Made by a program: the position numbers and the translations under genes. The notes under the pieces were generated by a model. It saw nothing but the letters and a program-made list of their open reading frames with translations, was not told the DNA's origin and did no database searches. Source: Glycomyces artemisiae (GTDB taxonomy: Bacteria > Actinomycetota > Actinomycetes > Mycobacteriales > Micromonosporaceae). Taken from it: a stretch of DNA of 64,000 nt. Positions 6,592-53,230 of this stretch are shown in pieces. Position 1 is the first letter of the stretch. Each line of letters opens with the position of its first letter. The stretch covers positions 310,001 to 374,000 of the forward strand of contig NZ_PVTJ01000004.1 in NCBI RefSeq assembly GCF_003002955.1, in the 5' to 3' direction.

Positions 6592-6646
6592 GTATCAGGA
6601 ACCCCGGCAACGGACCGAATCCGTTTCAGCGCAAAGGAAACCCGCC

Positions 6647-8185
6647 ATGTCACCCGTCAAGTCCGCCCTCCGCGGCGCGGCCGCCCTCGCCGCCGCGGCC
6701 CTCGGCGCGGGAGCGTTCGCGCTCCCCGCCCAGGCCCAGACCTTCACGCCCATTGAGGTGTTCGTCGAGGACTACTCGCCGATCGCCTACGGGGACGCGC
6801 CCGAGAAGTTCGGGCTGCGCATCGCGTTCGGCGACGACTTCGCCGAAGGCGAGCACGACGTCACGGCCGTCGTCGAGATCGACGCCCCCGACGGCGGGTT
6901 CGCGATCGGCCTGCCCGACGGCACCGGCAGCGACTGCCCCGCGAACGACGCGGGCACCGTCGTCTCCTGCTCGTGGGAGGACGCCCCGTCGGCCTCGTTC
7001 TGGGAGTTCCGGTACGCGCCGACCGCGGAGCTCGCCTCCGGCGAATACCCGTACACCGTCACGTTCGCCGTGGACGGCGAGACCGTCGCGACCGAAGCGG
7101 ACGCCATCGAGGTCGTCGGCACCGACACCGACCGGCCCTACCTGCACGGCATCGCCGACTACACGGACGTCGCGCCCGGCTCCTCCATCGGCATCGAGGC
7201 CGAGGTGCTCCAGCAGGCGGCCCTGCCCGCCGACACCGCCGCGGTCGTCGCCGTCCTCTCCGGCCCCGTCTACGCCGTCATCGAGGGCGTCGAGGTGACC
7301 GCCGGGTACGACAACTGCACCGGGGACGCCTGGGGCGGACCGGGCGTCACCTGCGTCATCACCGACTTCCCCGACGAGCCCGGGACCGCGTTCGCGCTCT
7401 CGCCCGTGGACTACGCCCTCGCGGCGGACCTGCCGGGCCCGTACTGGTACTGCGACTGCGAGTACGAGGTGTTCCCGGTCGATGCGGACGGGCTCGCCGC
7501 GTACGGCGGCGTCACCTGGGACGAGGGCTCGGCGAACCTGATGGGCCTGGAGGCCTCCGACGGCCCCGGCGAGTACAGCGACCCGTTCACCGGCTACCTC
7601 AACATCCAGACCGCCGCGCAGCAGTATGACCTGTCGGTCGCGAACCTGAACGCCAAGGGCGCCAAGGACACCGAGACCACTGTGACCGTGTCGGCCACCA
7701 ACGCCGGGCCCGCCGGTGCCGTGCGGCTCTTCGACGAGGTCGGCTCGTACGCGATCCTCGGGAAGCTGCCGGCCGGTCTGGAGCTCGTCGCGGTCGACGA
7801 CGAGGACGCCGTCTGCCCCGACGCCGCCGAATGGGCGGACCTGCTGCCCCGCGAAGACGTCGACGGGCTCGACTTCGTGTGCTTCTTCGACGCGCTGCCC
7901 GCCGGGGAGACCATGAACCTGGCGCTGCGCGTGAAGATCACCGGGGACGGTGCGGCGAACGACGGCACGCTGGCCGTCGCGTCCCGCGAGTACGAGGAGT
8001 TCGGCTTCGAGGCCGACCGCTCCGACAACGACGCCGTGTTCAGCGTCAACGCGGGCGGCTCGGCGAACCTGCCGACCACCGGCACGTCGATGACGGTGCT
8101 CCTCGGCGGCGCGGGCGCGGCCCTCACCGCGGGCGCGGGTCTGGCGTTCACCGCCCGGAAGCGACGCATCCCCAGCGCCGCATAG
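6647..8185 (+). CDS. LPXTG-anchored surface protein, paralogue 2
   Basis: 512 residues with the same architecture as paralogue 1: signal peptide ending FALPAQAQ, an N-terminal domain with FGDDFAEGEHDVTAV, a four-Cys domain (YDNC...VTC and CDC), a DUF11-like domain, LPTTG at residue 475, a hydrophobic span and an RKRR tail. A 38-nt block encoding FGDDFAEGEHDV is identical in genes 1 and 2 (5068-5105 and 6827-6864), against moderate protein identity elsewhere, suggesting gene conversion or constraint. ATG 6647 follows AAAGGAAACC. It probably shares a promoter type with gene 1. No enzymatic motif is visible; an adhesin or wall-structural role is inferred. Confidence 0.85.
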   Translation: MSPVKSALRGAAALAAAALGAGAFALPAQAQTFTPIEVFVEDYSPIAYGDAPEKFGLRIAFGDDFAEGEHDVTAVVEIDAPDGGFAIGLPDGTGSDCPANDAGTVVSCSWEDAPSASFWEFRYAPTAELASGEYPYTVTFAVDGETVATEADAIEVVGTDTDRPYLHGIADYTDVAPGSSIGIEAEVLQQAALPADTAAVVAVLSGPVYAVIEGVEVTAGYDNCTGDAWGGPGVTCVITDFPDEPGTAFALSPVDYALAADLPGPYWYCDCEYEVFPVDADGLAAYGGVTWDEGSANLMGLEASDGPGEYSDPFTGYLNIQTAAQQYDLSVANLNAKGAKDTETTVTVSATNAGPAGAVRLFDEVGSYAILGKLPAGLELVAVDDEDAVCPDAAEWADLLPREDVDGLDFVCFFDALPAGETMNLALRVKITGDGAANDGTLAVASREYEEFGFEADRSDNDAVFSVNAGGSANLPTTGTSMTVLLGGAGAALTAGAGLAFTARKRRIPSAA

Positions 8186-49640: not shown

Positions 49641-51074
49641 CTAGGGTCGAGTCGCTCGTGAAAAGCAGTGGGCCAAGCCTAACCCCGCCTCGCGGGCGTC
49701 CTCCAGCTCCGGGTCGGCGTCGTCCTCCTGCGCCGTGCGGGGCGCCGTGAAGTGCACGGCGACGCCCCCGACCAGGGCCGCGGCGATCGACGCGGTGAGG
49801 ACGCCGATCTTGGCCTCGTACGCCAGGACCGGGTCGCCGCCGTAGAACGCCAGTTCGGCGATGAACAGGGCCACGGTGAACCCGATGCCCGCGACGGCGG
49901 CGATCGCGGTGAGCAGCGGCCAGGAGGTCCCCCGCGGCATCCGGCCCAGGCCGAGCTTCACGACCAGCCACGTCACGAGCGTGATGCCCAGGGTCTTGCC
50001 GAGGACGAGGCCGAGCACGATCCCGAGCGTCACCGTGGACCCGAACGCGGCGGCGACGAGGTCGGAGGAGAGCGGCACGCCCGCGTTGGCGAGCGCGAAC
50101 AGCGGCAGGACCACGAAGGAGGAGAACCGGTGGTTCTGGTGCTGGAGCCGGGCCGCGGGCGGCTGCGCGTCCCGGGTGAGCTTGACGAGGCGCTCGGTCT
50201 CTTCGAGGGTGAGGCCGTCCTTGGCGAGCTCCTGGGCCTCGTCGTGGGCGACGGCCGGGTCGAGGAGCGGCCGGGCGGCGATGATGAGGCCCATGACGAC
50301 CCCGGCGATGGTGGCGTGGACGCCGGACTGGAGCATCGCGACCCACAGCAGGACCCCGATGACGAGGTACACGGCCGGGGACCACACGTTGAGCAGGCGC
50401 ATGAGGACCGCGAGGGCGACCAGGGCGGCGGCGGCGATGAGCCATTCGGTGGCGAGGTCGTCGGTGTAGAACACGGCGATGACGGCGATCGCGCCGAGGT
50501 CGTCGACGATCGCGAGCGTGAGCAGGAAGATCCGGGCCGCGGAGGGGATGCGGGAGCCGAAGAGCGCGAGGACGCCGACGGCGAACGCGATGTCGGTGGC
50601 CATGGGGATGCCCCAGCCGTGGGCGCCGTCGCCGCCCGAGTTCAGGGACGCGTAGATGAGCGCCGGGACGGCCATGCCGCCGACGGCCGCGGCGATCGGC
50701 GGGACGGCGTTGCGGGGGCTGGCGAGCTCCCCGGAGACGATCTCCTGCTTGATCTCCAGGCCGACGACGAAGAAGAACACGGCCATGAGGCCGTCGTTGA
50801 TCCAGTCCTTGAGGGTGTGGTGGAGGCTGAAGTCCCCGAACGTGAACGTGATGTCCAGGCCCCACACCGCCTCGTAGGACCCGGACCAGGGCGAGTTCGC
50901 CCAGAGCATGGCGAGCACGGCGCAGACGACGAGGACGACGCCCGCGGCGGGCTCGATCTTGAGGAACTCCGCGGCGGGGCGGCCGACGTAGCGGGCGATG
51001 GGGCGGCGCGAGTAGAGGAACGCGGGGCGGTTCCTCCAGATGTCGGACTTCCAGGGCTCCTCGGGCAGTGTCAT
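49641..51074 (-). CDS. nhaA: Na+/H+ antiporter NhaA
   Basis: 477-residue NhaA with about 12 spans. The family core is complete: FFFVVGLEIKQEIVSGEL, GWGIPMATDIAFAVGVLALFG (ion-binding and pH-sensor region), LTLAIVDDLGAIAVIAVFY with the paired Asp, and a Lys-containing late span (LVLGKTLGI). It expels Na+ in exchange for protons. Hydrophilic N- and C-terminal tails are longer than in E. coli (388). ATG 51074 precedes EEPWKSDIW; the upstream RBS is not obvious. Downstream is the DUF3151 gene. Confidence 0.95.
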   Translation of the reverse strand: MTLPEEPWKSDIWRNRPAFLYSRRPIARYVGRPAAEFLKIEPAAGVVLVVCAVLAMLWANSPWSGSYEAVWGLDITFTFGDFSLHHTLKDWINDGLMAVFFFVVGLEIKQEIVSGELASPRNAVPPIAAAVGGMAVPALIYASLNSGGDGAHGWGIPMATDIAFAVGVLALFGSRIPSAARIFLLTLAIVDDLGAIAVIAVFYTDDLATEWLIAAAALVALAVLMRLLNVWSPAVYLVIGVLLWVAMLQSGVHATIAGVVMGLIIAARPLLDPAVAHDEAQELAKDGLTLEETERLVKLTRDAQPPAARLQHQNHRFSSFVVLPLFALANAGVPLSSDLVAAAFGSTVTLGIVLGLVLGKTLGITLVTWLVVKLGLGRMPRGTSWPLLTAIAAVAGIGFTVALFIAELAFYGGDPVLAYEAKIGVLTASIAAALVGGVAVHFTAPRTAQEDDADPELEDAREAGLGLAHCFSRATRP

Positions 51075-51146
51075 GCGCCAGAGCCTATCCGGGCGGCCAG
51101 GAAGTCACCGGGTGCTACCGAACAGTGACGGCATCGGGCCGGTGCG

Positions 51147-51566
51147 TCAGGCGGCGGCGCGGCAGTCGGGGCACAGGCCCCGGTAGGTGACGGCGGCGCT
51201 GGTGACGGTGAAGCCGTGGCGCTCGTCGCCGGGGAGCCACTCGATGGGGTCGGCGACGGCGTGGACGTCTTTCATGAGGCCGCAGCCGTCGCAGATGAGG
51301 TGGTGGTGGTCGTGGTCGGCGTTCGGGTCGTACCGCTTGGACCGGCCCTGGAGGGACAGCTCGATGACCTCGCCGAGGGCGACCATCTCGTTCAGGGTGT
51401 TGTAGACCGTGGCGCGGGAGATCTCGGGCATGCGCTCGCAGGCGCGTTCGAGGACCTCGTCGGCCGTGTAGTGCACGTGGGAACCTTCGAGGGTCTCGGC
51501 GATGACGCGTCGCTGAGGGGTGATGCGCCAGTTGTGGCGCCGCAGTCGGGTTACCAGGTCGCTCAT
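51147..51566 (-). CDS. Fur-family metal or peroxide regulator
   Basis: 139 residues: winged-helix N-terminal half (RHNWRITPQRRVIAETLE, ISRATVYNTLNEMV) and a metal-binding C-terminal half with DHDHHHLICDGCG and a terminal CPDC forming the structural zinc site. Actinobacterial Fur paralogues control iron, zinc, nickel or peroxide genes; sequence alone does not choose, though it is not next to katG as FurA/CatR usually is. An iron-box-like palindrome lies about 100 nt upstream. ATG 51566 has GAGAGAAC before it. Confidence 0.93.
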   Translation of the reverse strand: MSDLVTRLRRHNWRITPQRRVIAETLEGSHVHYTADEVLERACERMPEISRATVYNTLNEMVALGEVIELSLQGRSKRYDPNADHDHHHLICDGCGLMKDVHAVADPIEWLPGDERHGFTVTSAAVTYRGLCPDCRAAA

Positions 51567-51663
51567 GCTGTTCTCTCAACGGTCCGGAAGTCGAACCCCA
51601 CTCTAGCAGGACAAACGAGCCCCGCACCACTGATGCTGGACGGCTTCTCACTTTAGACCGCTT

Positions 51664-51679
51664 CTAAGGTTCGCCTAAG
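51664..51679 (-). promoter_or_regulatory. Iron-box-like palindrome upstream of the Fur gene
   Basis: CTAAGG TTCG CCTAAG, sharing AGGTTCGCCTAA with the iron box at 19486-19503. Outer CCGCTT/AAGCGG arms (51658-51682) extend it into a longer inverted repeat. Confidence 0.5.
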
Positions 51680-51712
51680 CGGCCCGGCCGGGCGCTCGGG
51701 GCGGACACCGCG

Positions 51713-51743
51713 GCGGCCCCCGCGCGGGTCGCGCGGGGGCCGC
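51713..51743 (-). terminator. Terminator of the TnpB-derived gene
   Basis: Perfect 13-bp stem GCGGCCCCCGCGC with a GGGTC loop, 12 nt beyond the stop codon. Confidence 0.8.
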
Positions 51744-51755
51744 GGTGCACCGGGC

Positions 51756-52352
51756 CTAGTCCTCCAGGACGCGCCCGCACTCGCCGCATTCCGGCGGCTT
51801 CTGCCGCGGGACCTCCACGAACTCCTCGGCCACGATCCACAGCTTCCACCGGTCGTGCTCGCGGATCACCGTGATCGAGGTGATGTCGTCGCGGCCGGGC
51901 CGCTCCAGGCCCCACATGATGTCCAAGGGCTCCTTGTGCTTCGCGAGCTTCACCTCGCGGCCCTTCAGGTAGTACCCGGCCCGCGAGTACACCAGCTGCA
52001 CCTGCTCGCCGTGCTCCTTCGGCGCGGGTTCGCGGCTGCGGCCGTTGAGGAACGCGTGGTACTCGGTGTGCAGCTGGCGCGCGATCTGCTGGAGCGGCAC
52101 GGACGAATAGGCCTTGACCCACCGGTTCGCGGGCTGGTTCTTCCACTTGGTCAGCCGCGCGGAGATCTCGGCGTAGGAGATCTTCTCCCCCTTCGCGCGC
52201 CACTCGCGCTGGAACACCGACAGGGACCAGTTGTACACGGCGCGAACCGCTTCGAGGGTCTCCTCAAGGTTCCGCAGCTGCTGCTCGTCGGGGTCGAACG
52301 TATACTCGTACCCGCGTTTCACCAAGTGGGTCATAGGCTTCGTCATGTCCAT
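51756..52352 (-). CDS. RuvC-less TnpB (IS605 OrfB) N-terminal-half protein
   Basis: 198 residues matching the first half of IS200/IS605 TnpB: the opening KRGYEYTFDPDEQQ, an HTH/REC-like helical block (ETLEAVRAVYNWSLSVF), the TnpB-typical WVKAYSSVPLQQIARQL, LAKHKEPLDIMW, and a last strand WKLWIVAEE. At the point where RuvC-I should begin it ends with the short Cys motif CGECGRVLED. The RuvC nuclease, target-nucleation and long zinc regions are absent, and none appears in the following 190 nt. Yet the frame is intact and closed by a strong terminator. AGG lies 8 nt before the second Met (52346), the probable start. Either an internal-deletion relic or a domesticated DNA/RNA-binding protein. Confidence 0.82.
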   Translation of the reverse strand: MDMTKPMTHLVKRGYEYTFDPDEQQLRNLEETLEAVRAVYNWSLSVFQREWRAKGEKISYAEISARLTKWKNQPANRWVKAYSSVPLQQIARQLHTEYHAFLNGRSREPAPKEHGEQVQLVYSRAGYYLKGREVKLAKHKEPLDIMWGLERPGRDDITSITVIREHDRWKLWIVAEEFVEVPRQKPPECGECGRVLED

Positions 52353-52429
52353 GACCTGTTGATATCAGACGATTACGCACCGCCACGTGTTCCTCACCTC
52401 ATCGGCGTGTCGACTGGCCGTGCGGCAAG

Positions 52430-52435
52430 TAACTT
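52430..52435 (+). promoter_or_regulatory. -10 box of a leaderless gene
   Basis: TAACTT, 6 nt before GTG 52442. Confidence 0.5.
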
Positions 52436-52441
52436 GGCCTG

Positions 52442-53230
52442 GTGCCCTTCGACATCGACCCCGGCCTCTTCGCGCTGCTCATCGTCGCGGCCGTCTTCGC
52501 CGGATGGGTCGACGCGGTCGTCGGGGGCGGCGGCCTCATCCAGCTCCCCGCGCTCCTGGTGGCGTTCCCCACAGCCCCGGTGCAGCTCATGCTGGGCACC
52601 AACAAGATGGCGTCGGTGTGCGGCACGACGATCTCCGCGATCACCTACTCCCGCAAGATCAAACTGGAGCACCGGCTGCTGTGGCCCACCGTCGGCCTCG
52701 CGCTCCTCGGCTCCGGCGCCGGGGCCGTCGCGGCCCTCGCGGTCTCCGCGAGCGCGTTGAAGCCCATCATCATCGGGGTGCTCCTGGCCGTCCTCGTCCT
52801 GGTCATCGCCCGCCCCCAGCTCGGCCTCGAACCGCAGCCCCGGCTGCGGACCCCGCTGCGCGCCGCCGCGCTCATGCTCACCGCCGGCGTCGCGGTCGCG
52901 TTCTACGACGGCGTCATCGGCCCCGGCACCGGGATCTTCCTGTCCGTGGCGTTCACGGCGATCATCGGCTTCGACTACGTCACAGCCGCCGCGCACACCA
53001 AGGTCGTCAACGCCGCCACCAACATCGGCGGCGTCACCGTGTTCGCCCTCCAGGGCAACGTGTGGTGGATCCTCGGCCTGGTCATGGGCCTGGGCTGTAT
53101 GGCGGGCGCGTGGTTCGGAGCCCGCACGGCGATGGCGAAGGGCTCCCGGTTCGTGCGGATCGTCCTCGTCGTCGTGGTGCTCGCGCTCCTGGCCCGGCTC
53201 GGCTGGGACGTGTGGGCCGCGGCCCGTTAA
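52442..53230 (+). CDS. TauE/SafE-family sulfite/anion exporter
   Basis: 262-residue membrane protein with about 8 spans and the family hallmark GWVDAVVGGGGLIQLPALL near the N-terminus plus the repeated IGPGTGIFLSVAF motif. Family members export sulfite, sulfoacetate or other small anions. GTG 52442 is a leaderless start. It is divergent from the TnpB-derived gene and convergent with the CaX antiporter, sharing overlapped stop codons (53227-53230). Confidence 0.9.
   Translation: MPFDIDPGLFALLIVAAVFAGWVDAVVGGGGLIQLPALLVAFPTAPVQLMLGTNKMASVCGTTISAITYSRKIKLEHRLLWPTVGLALLGSGAGAVAALAVSASALKPIIIGVLLAVLVLVIARPQLGLEPQPRLRTPLRAAALMLTAGVAVAFYDGVIGPGTGIFLSVAFTAIIGFDYVTAAAHTKVVNAATNIGGVTVFALQGNVWWILGLVMGLGCMAGAWFGARTAMAKGSRFVRIVLVVVVLALLARLGWDVWAAAR

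Follow-up and report, generated by a model that had tools for sequence, protein, structure and literature searches.

A protein reduced to the recognition half of TnpB is encoded in the DNA that we analyzed, a 64,000-nucleotide stretch of Glycomyces artemisiae (contig NZ_PVTJ01000004.1, positions 310,001 to 374,000; hereafter, the window). Its gene lies at 51756..52352 on the minus strand, encodes 198 amino acids (aa) comprising the wedge (WED) and recognition (REC) domains, and lacks the RuvC nuclease half; gene and product are called the short gene and the short protein below, as distinct from full TnpBs. Its exaptation as a host gene is well supported. We propose that it is a domesticated TnpB lobe, which would bind double-stranded DNA without a guide, regulate its own gene and carry a zinc-pinned tail, and we assign a probability of roughly 0.47 to this reading as a whole; its functional parts, DNA binding and autoregulation, we infer from sequence comparison. 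More tentatively, and with clear doubt, the lobe that reads the target-adjacent motif (TAM) may have become a stand-alone, sequence-specific DNA-binding regulator of its own promoter, its tail being pinned by a gained zinc site of the C2H2 type.

An intact gene that ends where RuvC would begin

The open reading frame runs uninterrupted from ATG to TAG. Its product matched the Pfam profile HTH_OrfB_IS605 (E 2.8e-10) and positions 1-190 of the 389 of the NCBIfam profile guided_TnpB (E 2e-15, a score under the curated cut-off), and the motifs SSVPLQQ and LAKH..PLDI are common to it and full TnpBs. The protein ends at the expected start of RuvC-I, and the RuvC D/E/D triad is absent. Its fold was predicted, with good confidence, to be that of the WED and REC domains of TnpB. 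When TnpB frames longer than 370 aa were compared by tblastn with positions 51000-53000 of the window, the N-terminal lobe was recovered and no RuvC remnant was found 3′ of the stop codon, minus-strand matches to the RuvC part being no better than E ~0.06. Likewise, the Pfam scan of the short protein gave no match to PF07282 (TNB) up to E 10; the TNB zinc ribbon needs two CxxC motifs, and the short protein has one. The original prediction, which described an N-terminal TnpB half without RuvC, a frame clean for 198 codons and no remnant behind it, is thus borne out on these points.

A conserved family under purifying selection at a fixed locus

The protein search returned 16 proteins, of which 13 had 190-200 aa and came from Glycomyces, Haloglycomyces, Salininema and metagenomes, with identities as low as 68%, and a profile search returned 15 without additional relatives; both searches admit only 0.55-1.75 times the query length, so that full TnpBs cannot appear in them. 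All 22 Glycomyces genomes carry one copy of the short form, with 80-100% identity and no internal stops, and the homologues in Haloglycomyces and Salininema have 190-194 aa and 67-68% identity. Outside the genus, the short gene was seen in one (G033, 68%) of 150 genomes drawn from the family, among the matches listed. Collections of plasmid (72,556 records) and phage (50,697 records) sequences contained no match with at least 60% identity. Further matches, with 24-36% identity and for the most part in frames as long as a full TnpB, were found in 17 of the 22 Glycomyces genomes.

The locus is equally stable. A fur gene was present in all 20 loci that reach far enough, and in 19 of these, a convergent catalase gene (catA) stood between it and the short gene; another locus, L068, ends ahead of this stretch. 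In L054 (Glycomyces dulcitolivorans; 6597-6995), the exception, catA was not seen, though a stretch of N might conceal it, and the Fur-family gene is kept. The gene tauE was divergent from the short gene at a distance of ~90-150 bp in 19 of 21 loci (L048-L068), lay ~960 bp away in L064 and was not found in L061. The order in Haloglycomyces (L081) is aldh, short gene, catA, fur and nhaA, with no tauE among them. Since this order is the same, the short gene was apparently in place before these genera diverged. No carriage by a mobile element was seen, the location being the same in the loci read, that of Haloglycomyces included.

In a tree of 14 of the 31 short sequences (last 12 residues removed) and 26 full TnpBs, the short ones stood together on one side of a branch with a support of 100/100; this long branch, on which the midpoint root falls, measured 2.66 plus 1.92 changes per column. 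The 31 short sequences, which are partly non-independent, comprise 23 loci and 8 of the 16 proteins from the search. The 26 full TnpBs were taken from 32 loci, from which L028 (no frame at the match), L039 and L041 (short frames), L080 (divergent), and L070 and L072 (the same element as L071, at contig ends) were excluded. The excluded L039 (G146:C29) is a TnpB relative whose open frame spans just 174 aa; it may be a truncated relic. Most simply, the whole nuclease half of the short protein was lost once, in an ancestor of Glycomyces, Haloglycomyces and Salininema.

The ratio of nonsynonymous to synonymous substitution rates (dN/dS), determined by the Nei-Gojobori count, had a median of 0.24 (range 0.06-0.52) in 231 of 253 pairs with dS below 1; the other 22 pairs, with dS of at least 1 or undefined, were excluded. 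On the 171 pairs common to five genes, the medians were 0.255 for the short gene, 0.249 for fur, 0.322 for tauE, 0.219 for aldh and 0.381 for nhaA. Because the count is uncorrected for high GC, the comparison with the neighbors is the safer statement, and at the codon level, it shows the short gene to be under purifying selection comparable to that on its housekeeping neighbors.

A recent deletion relic or drifting pseudogene might be suspected, since databases label members of the family as transposases or helix-turn-helix proteins and short TnpB frames such as the 174-aa one of L039 do occur. Against this stand 22 of 22 genomes without internal stops, a dN/dS of 0.255, a single syntenic locus and the frozen leader described below; distribution, selection, synteny and leader together rule it out as far as sequence allows, and we give it practically no chance. 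The earlier suggestion of exaptation rather than decay therefore gains from the homologue family, the shared locus, the selection and the predicted fold, and a unique gene under relaxed selection is not what was found.

Residues kept from the TAM cleft and basic surface lost

According to PMC10097598, ISDra2 TnpB reads its TAM, TTGAT, with the REC residues Y52, S56, K76, F77 and Q80 and the WED residues T123 and N124. In a gapless HMMER alignment, the five REC residues correspond to Y60, S64, S84, V85 and Q88 of the short protein (52089..52175, minus strand), which are invariant in a 14-row alignment and equal the consensus of the 26 full TnpBs. Within residues 1-183, 73 positions are conserved in full TnpBs (at least 90% of the 26), and 32 of these stay the same in 97% or more of the short sequences; all five mapped REC positions are among the 32 (P 0.013, uncorrected). 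By the same cut-off, 4 of 11 conserved basic positions are unchanged; at two others, a basic residue persists in 97% (R37) and 94% (K112) of the short sequences. The median net charge of residues 13-180 falls from +15 in full TnpBs to +2 in the short family; in the FKxKKR loop, it drops from +5.5 to 0. Other residues, K80, R132, K135, R151, R154, R183, K185 and R194, are basic in all short sequences and rarely or sometimes basic in TnpB. Family-specific invariant residues include W42, F47, Y82, E150, R151 and R154.

In ISDra2 TnpB, WED and RuvC hold the omega-RNA scaffold, RuvC being the holder of stems 1, 2 and 3a and of the triple helix (PMC10097598). Because the REC positions are unchanged and the basic surface and RuvC are reduced or lost, the DNA-reading part of REC appears to have been kept and the RNA-binding surfaces to be reduced or gone. 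The evidence on binding leans toward double-stranded DNA in the TAM cleft rather than RNA, a choice that the original prediction did not make. A protein-protein adaptor or structural subunit that has lost nucleic-acid binding would agree with the low net charge and with the family-specific invariants; it would need no conservation of the REC TAM positions and leaves the newly gained invariant basic residues unaccounted for, and we consider it improbable.

Another reading is a function resembling that of TldR, in which the lobe would take an omega-RNA made elsewhere and repress by RNA-guided binding. TnpBs are known that have been inactivated as nucleases and apparently still bind guide RNA and DNA (PMC13418256). 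The short protein lacks RuvC, the holder of most of the scaffold in ISDra2 TnpB (PMC10097598). PF07282 (TNB) was found in six of eight genomes examined; the other two, the draft assemblies G008 and G013, had no match and keep the short gene, so that no TnpB was seen there to lend an RNA and the short gene does not seem to serve a TnpB of the same genome. By eye, no omega-RNA-like block was noticed downstream of the short gene among the matches listed, and at gathering scores, Rfam gave only two tRNAs across the window, neither of them in the region of the short gene. We therefore regard this function as very improbable.

TAM of the full relatives

For full TnpB elements, three insertion sites were set against their counterparts in other genomes. 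The elements start with CGCCT in three copies (L030, L032 and L074) and end with GCCAA in four (these and L002). At the L032 site, GTCAT stands directly 5′ of the element, and CGTCAT was present in 3/3 empty sites listed, of 5 compared; the corresponding place in L002, inserted at the same site, reads ATCAT. The site shared by L002 and L032 is found in two species, before an acetyl-CoA acetyltransferase-like gene (named by eye). At the L074 site, CTCAT precedes the element, and the same was seen in 4/4 empty sites listed, of 12 compared. At the L030 site, TTAT was present in 3/3 empty sites listed, of 11 compared, among which L124 is not a clean empty site; the filled copy reads CTAG. The TAM of the full relatives is thus T(C/T)AT, as read from the empty sites, which rule out the TTAC found before the relatives' tnpB as a TAM.

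This motif is consistent with the residues, as Y and S meet the T at −1 and Q meets the A at −2; K76, the reader of G at −3 in ISDra2, is S in the Glycomyces proteins. If its cleft still works, the short protein is predicted to recognize the same core, T(C/T)AT. Having the same REC TAM positions as the resident TnpBs, the lobe could also serve in defense, occupying TAM sites or competing with active TnpBs and so limiting the spread of insertion sequences, and the more distant matches in 17 of 22 genomes would provide the opponents. Yet the gene is kept in two of eight genomes examined without a PF07282 match, and a genome that bears it may hold many TnpBs (14 matches in G021, the short gene included). 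We judge such a role quite improbable.

A frozen leader directly upstream

An alignment of the 22 Glycomyces loci revealed a leader of 59 bp directly 5′ of the ATG (52353..52411, minus strand), in which 47 of 59 columns are identical. Its mean pairwise identity is 0.951, against 0.677 at fourfold sites, and four ungapped 10-bp blocks sampled farther upstream contained no invariant column. The conservation extends past the ATG over the opening 45 nt of the coding sequence (52308..52352, minus strand), where, for example, TTG and AAA codons are invariant in all 22 loci. The leader is retained where tauE was not found or is far (L061 and L064) and partly retained in Haloglycomyces. Both of its halves were found at the short gene in 22/22 genomes; the other matches were the first half with three mismatches, once in G003 and once in G007, and the reversed control, once in G019. 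As a regulon motif, the leader was rejected, as it is essentially confined to the short gene and no regulon was found. As coding sequence it was also rejected: in 15 of 22 Glycomyces loci, a TGA closes the main frame 15 nt short of the ATG, and in the two frames read by eye, the variable positions alter amino acids. An extracytoplasmic function (ECF)-type promoter, GGAAC-N17-CGTC, could be placed in the window; its second part varies (CATC, CGTT), and we do not claim it. No sigma-70 promoter was found.

Leader and first codons (52308-52411) form a possible operator or promoter. A control region bound to one gene, beside a gene with a nucleic-acid-binding fold, suggests autoregulation, in which the short protein would control its own gene through the leader. 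Alternatively, the lobe may be an exapted RNA binder that controls translation through its own mRNA leader or binds another RNA. The extension of conservation past the start codon would fit this, as would the WED domain of ISDra2 TnpB, which contacts stem 4 and shares the omega-RNA pseudoknot with RuvC (PMC10097598). In contrast, the leader folded no better than shuffled sequences (z 0.20), and in the consensus fold of 17 sequences (17 of 23 loci aligned), only 1 of 28 pairs had a change on both sides, leaving a structured RNA unsupported; moreover, TnpB's basic loop has been lost together with several of its conserved K/R, and so has the RuvC domain, the holder of stem 1, the triple helix and stems 2 and 3a in ISDra2 TnpB. 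We hold the RNA binder to be unlikely, with a weight that deserves attention.

C-terminal tail and candidate zinc site

Two short motifs distinguish the family. H95 and H99 (HxxxH; 52056..52070, minus strand) are invariant in the short family only, full TnpBs having Q at position 95 in 96% and A at position 99 in 46%. Residues 183-198 (51759..51806, minus strand) form a tail with an invariant core of the RQKPPExxxCGR type and a CxxC motif (C189 and C192). All four residues are invariant in 31/31 short sequences. One zinc ion with the HxxxH and CxxC ligands might pin the tail to the last REC helix and so replace the lost packing against RuvC. The tail also resembles the first zinc knuckle of the TNB domain of TnpB (PSSKxCSxCG), the tblastn matches being weak (E 1.4-4). 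By this likeness, the gene may stem from an internal deletion of RuvC rather than from plain truncation.

Weighing a proposed guide-free DNA-binding regulator

Taken together, the proposed sequence of events is as follows. After the loss of the nuclease half, the gene would have been inherited as a host gene. The former TAM cleft would let the protein bind double-stranded DNA with no guide RNA, the predicted T(C/T)AT core being widened by additional contacts, and would act as a small transcription regulator, whose first target would be its own frozen leader.

Several points weigh against this proposal. TnpB normally binds target DNA complexed with omega-RNA, and the bare lobe may bind weakly. 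By itself, a core of 4 bp is too short for a regulator, and +2 is a low net charge for a protein that binds DNA. Only the REC part of the TAM cleft was mapped (5/5 kept), the equivalents of T123 and N124 in WED being unmapped; where full TnpBs have the WED stretch YT(K/R/T)SAF, the short family has YSRAGY, so that this part of the cleft may have been altered. The tail (residues 181-198) was predicted with a mean predicted local distance difference test (pLDDT) score of 66-68. Another regulator, or a control at the RNA level, could account for the leader, in which T(C/T)AT showed no significant enrichment (P 0.086 for the window copy; P 0.25-0.54 for three further loci). In the window leader alone, TCAT gave P 0.038 and GTCAT P 0.020; despite these values, T(C/T)AT in the leader was set aside as unsupported.

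Surroundings of the gene in the window

By Pfam, the short gene is flanked, as the original prediction had placed it, by a Fur-family regulator gene (51147..51566, minus strand) and a divergent TauE-family exporter gene (52442..53230, plus strand). From its place beside catA in relatives, the Fur-family gene may be CatR-like. In the window itself, 51147-51756 contains no copy of catA and no run of N, and the Fur-family gene stays. Twelve bp past the stop codon lies a perfect inverted repeat, read from the sequence, with a 14-bp stem and a 3-nt loop (51713..51743, on neither strand in particular). The hairpin of the predicted "13-bp terminator" is thus real and 1 bp longer; its designation as a terminator is doubtful, as a T-run is absent and the terminator scan left it unscored. 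The repeat is possibly a terminator without a T-run. In relatives, a different GC-rich hairpin was seen downstream of the short gene (by eye, among the matches listed).

Comparison with known systems

With ISDra2 TnpB (IS200/IS605; PDB 8h1j, 8ex9, 8exa and 8bf8), the short protein shares the WED/REC lobe with HTH_OrfB_IS605. It differs in having neither RuvC nor a complete TNB zinc ribbon, in that no omega-RNA was seen, and in its fixed locus, low charge and own frozen leader. The recognition-lobe fold of Cas12f, Cas12m and Cas12k is like that of the short protein, which also gave weak profile matches to Cas12f and Cas12u4; these three effectors carry a RuvC fold and use CRISPR RNA. To our knowledge, the known domesticated TnpBs (TldR) and Cas12s (Cas12k and Cas12m) have all retained both the RuvC fold and their guide RNA. 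The short protein further matched PHROG 13964 (237 positions) and PHROG 25073 (114 positions), short TnpB-like profiles of phage families that might include lobe-only proteins.

We found no description of a RuvC-less TnpB protein, or of TnpB in Glycomyces, in the open-licence literature, which leaves absence unproven, and among the matches listed for broader topics in it, no title or abstract opening concerned a RuvC-less TnpB protein. The family provides a natural protein of ~200 aa in which only the TAM-reading recognition lobe survives, with its REC TAM positions unchanged and under selection comparable to that on housekeeping neighbors. It raises the question of whether a reader of a TAM or protospacer-adjacent motif (PAM) can bind DNA and regulate without RNA; if the proposal is true, TAM/PAM reading can work alone as a DNA-binding domain and was exapted without RNA. 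TldRs are likewise domesticated TnpBs without nuclease activity; as described in PMC13418256, they arose when the nuclease domain was inactivated, and they still bind guide RNA and DNA. Whereas RuvC is inactivated in TldR, as described there, the entire RuvC half is gone in the short protein. Domesticated nuclease-dead TnpBs are therefore already known from that account, and the conserved RuvC-less family is the new part.
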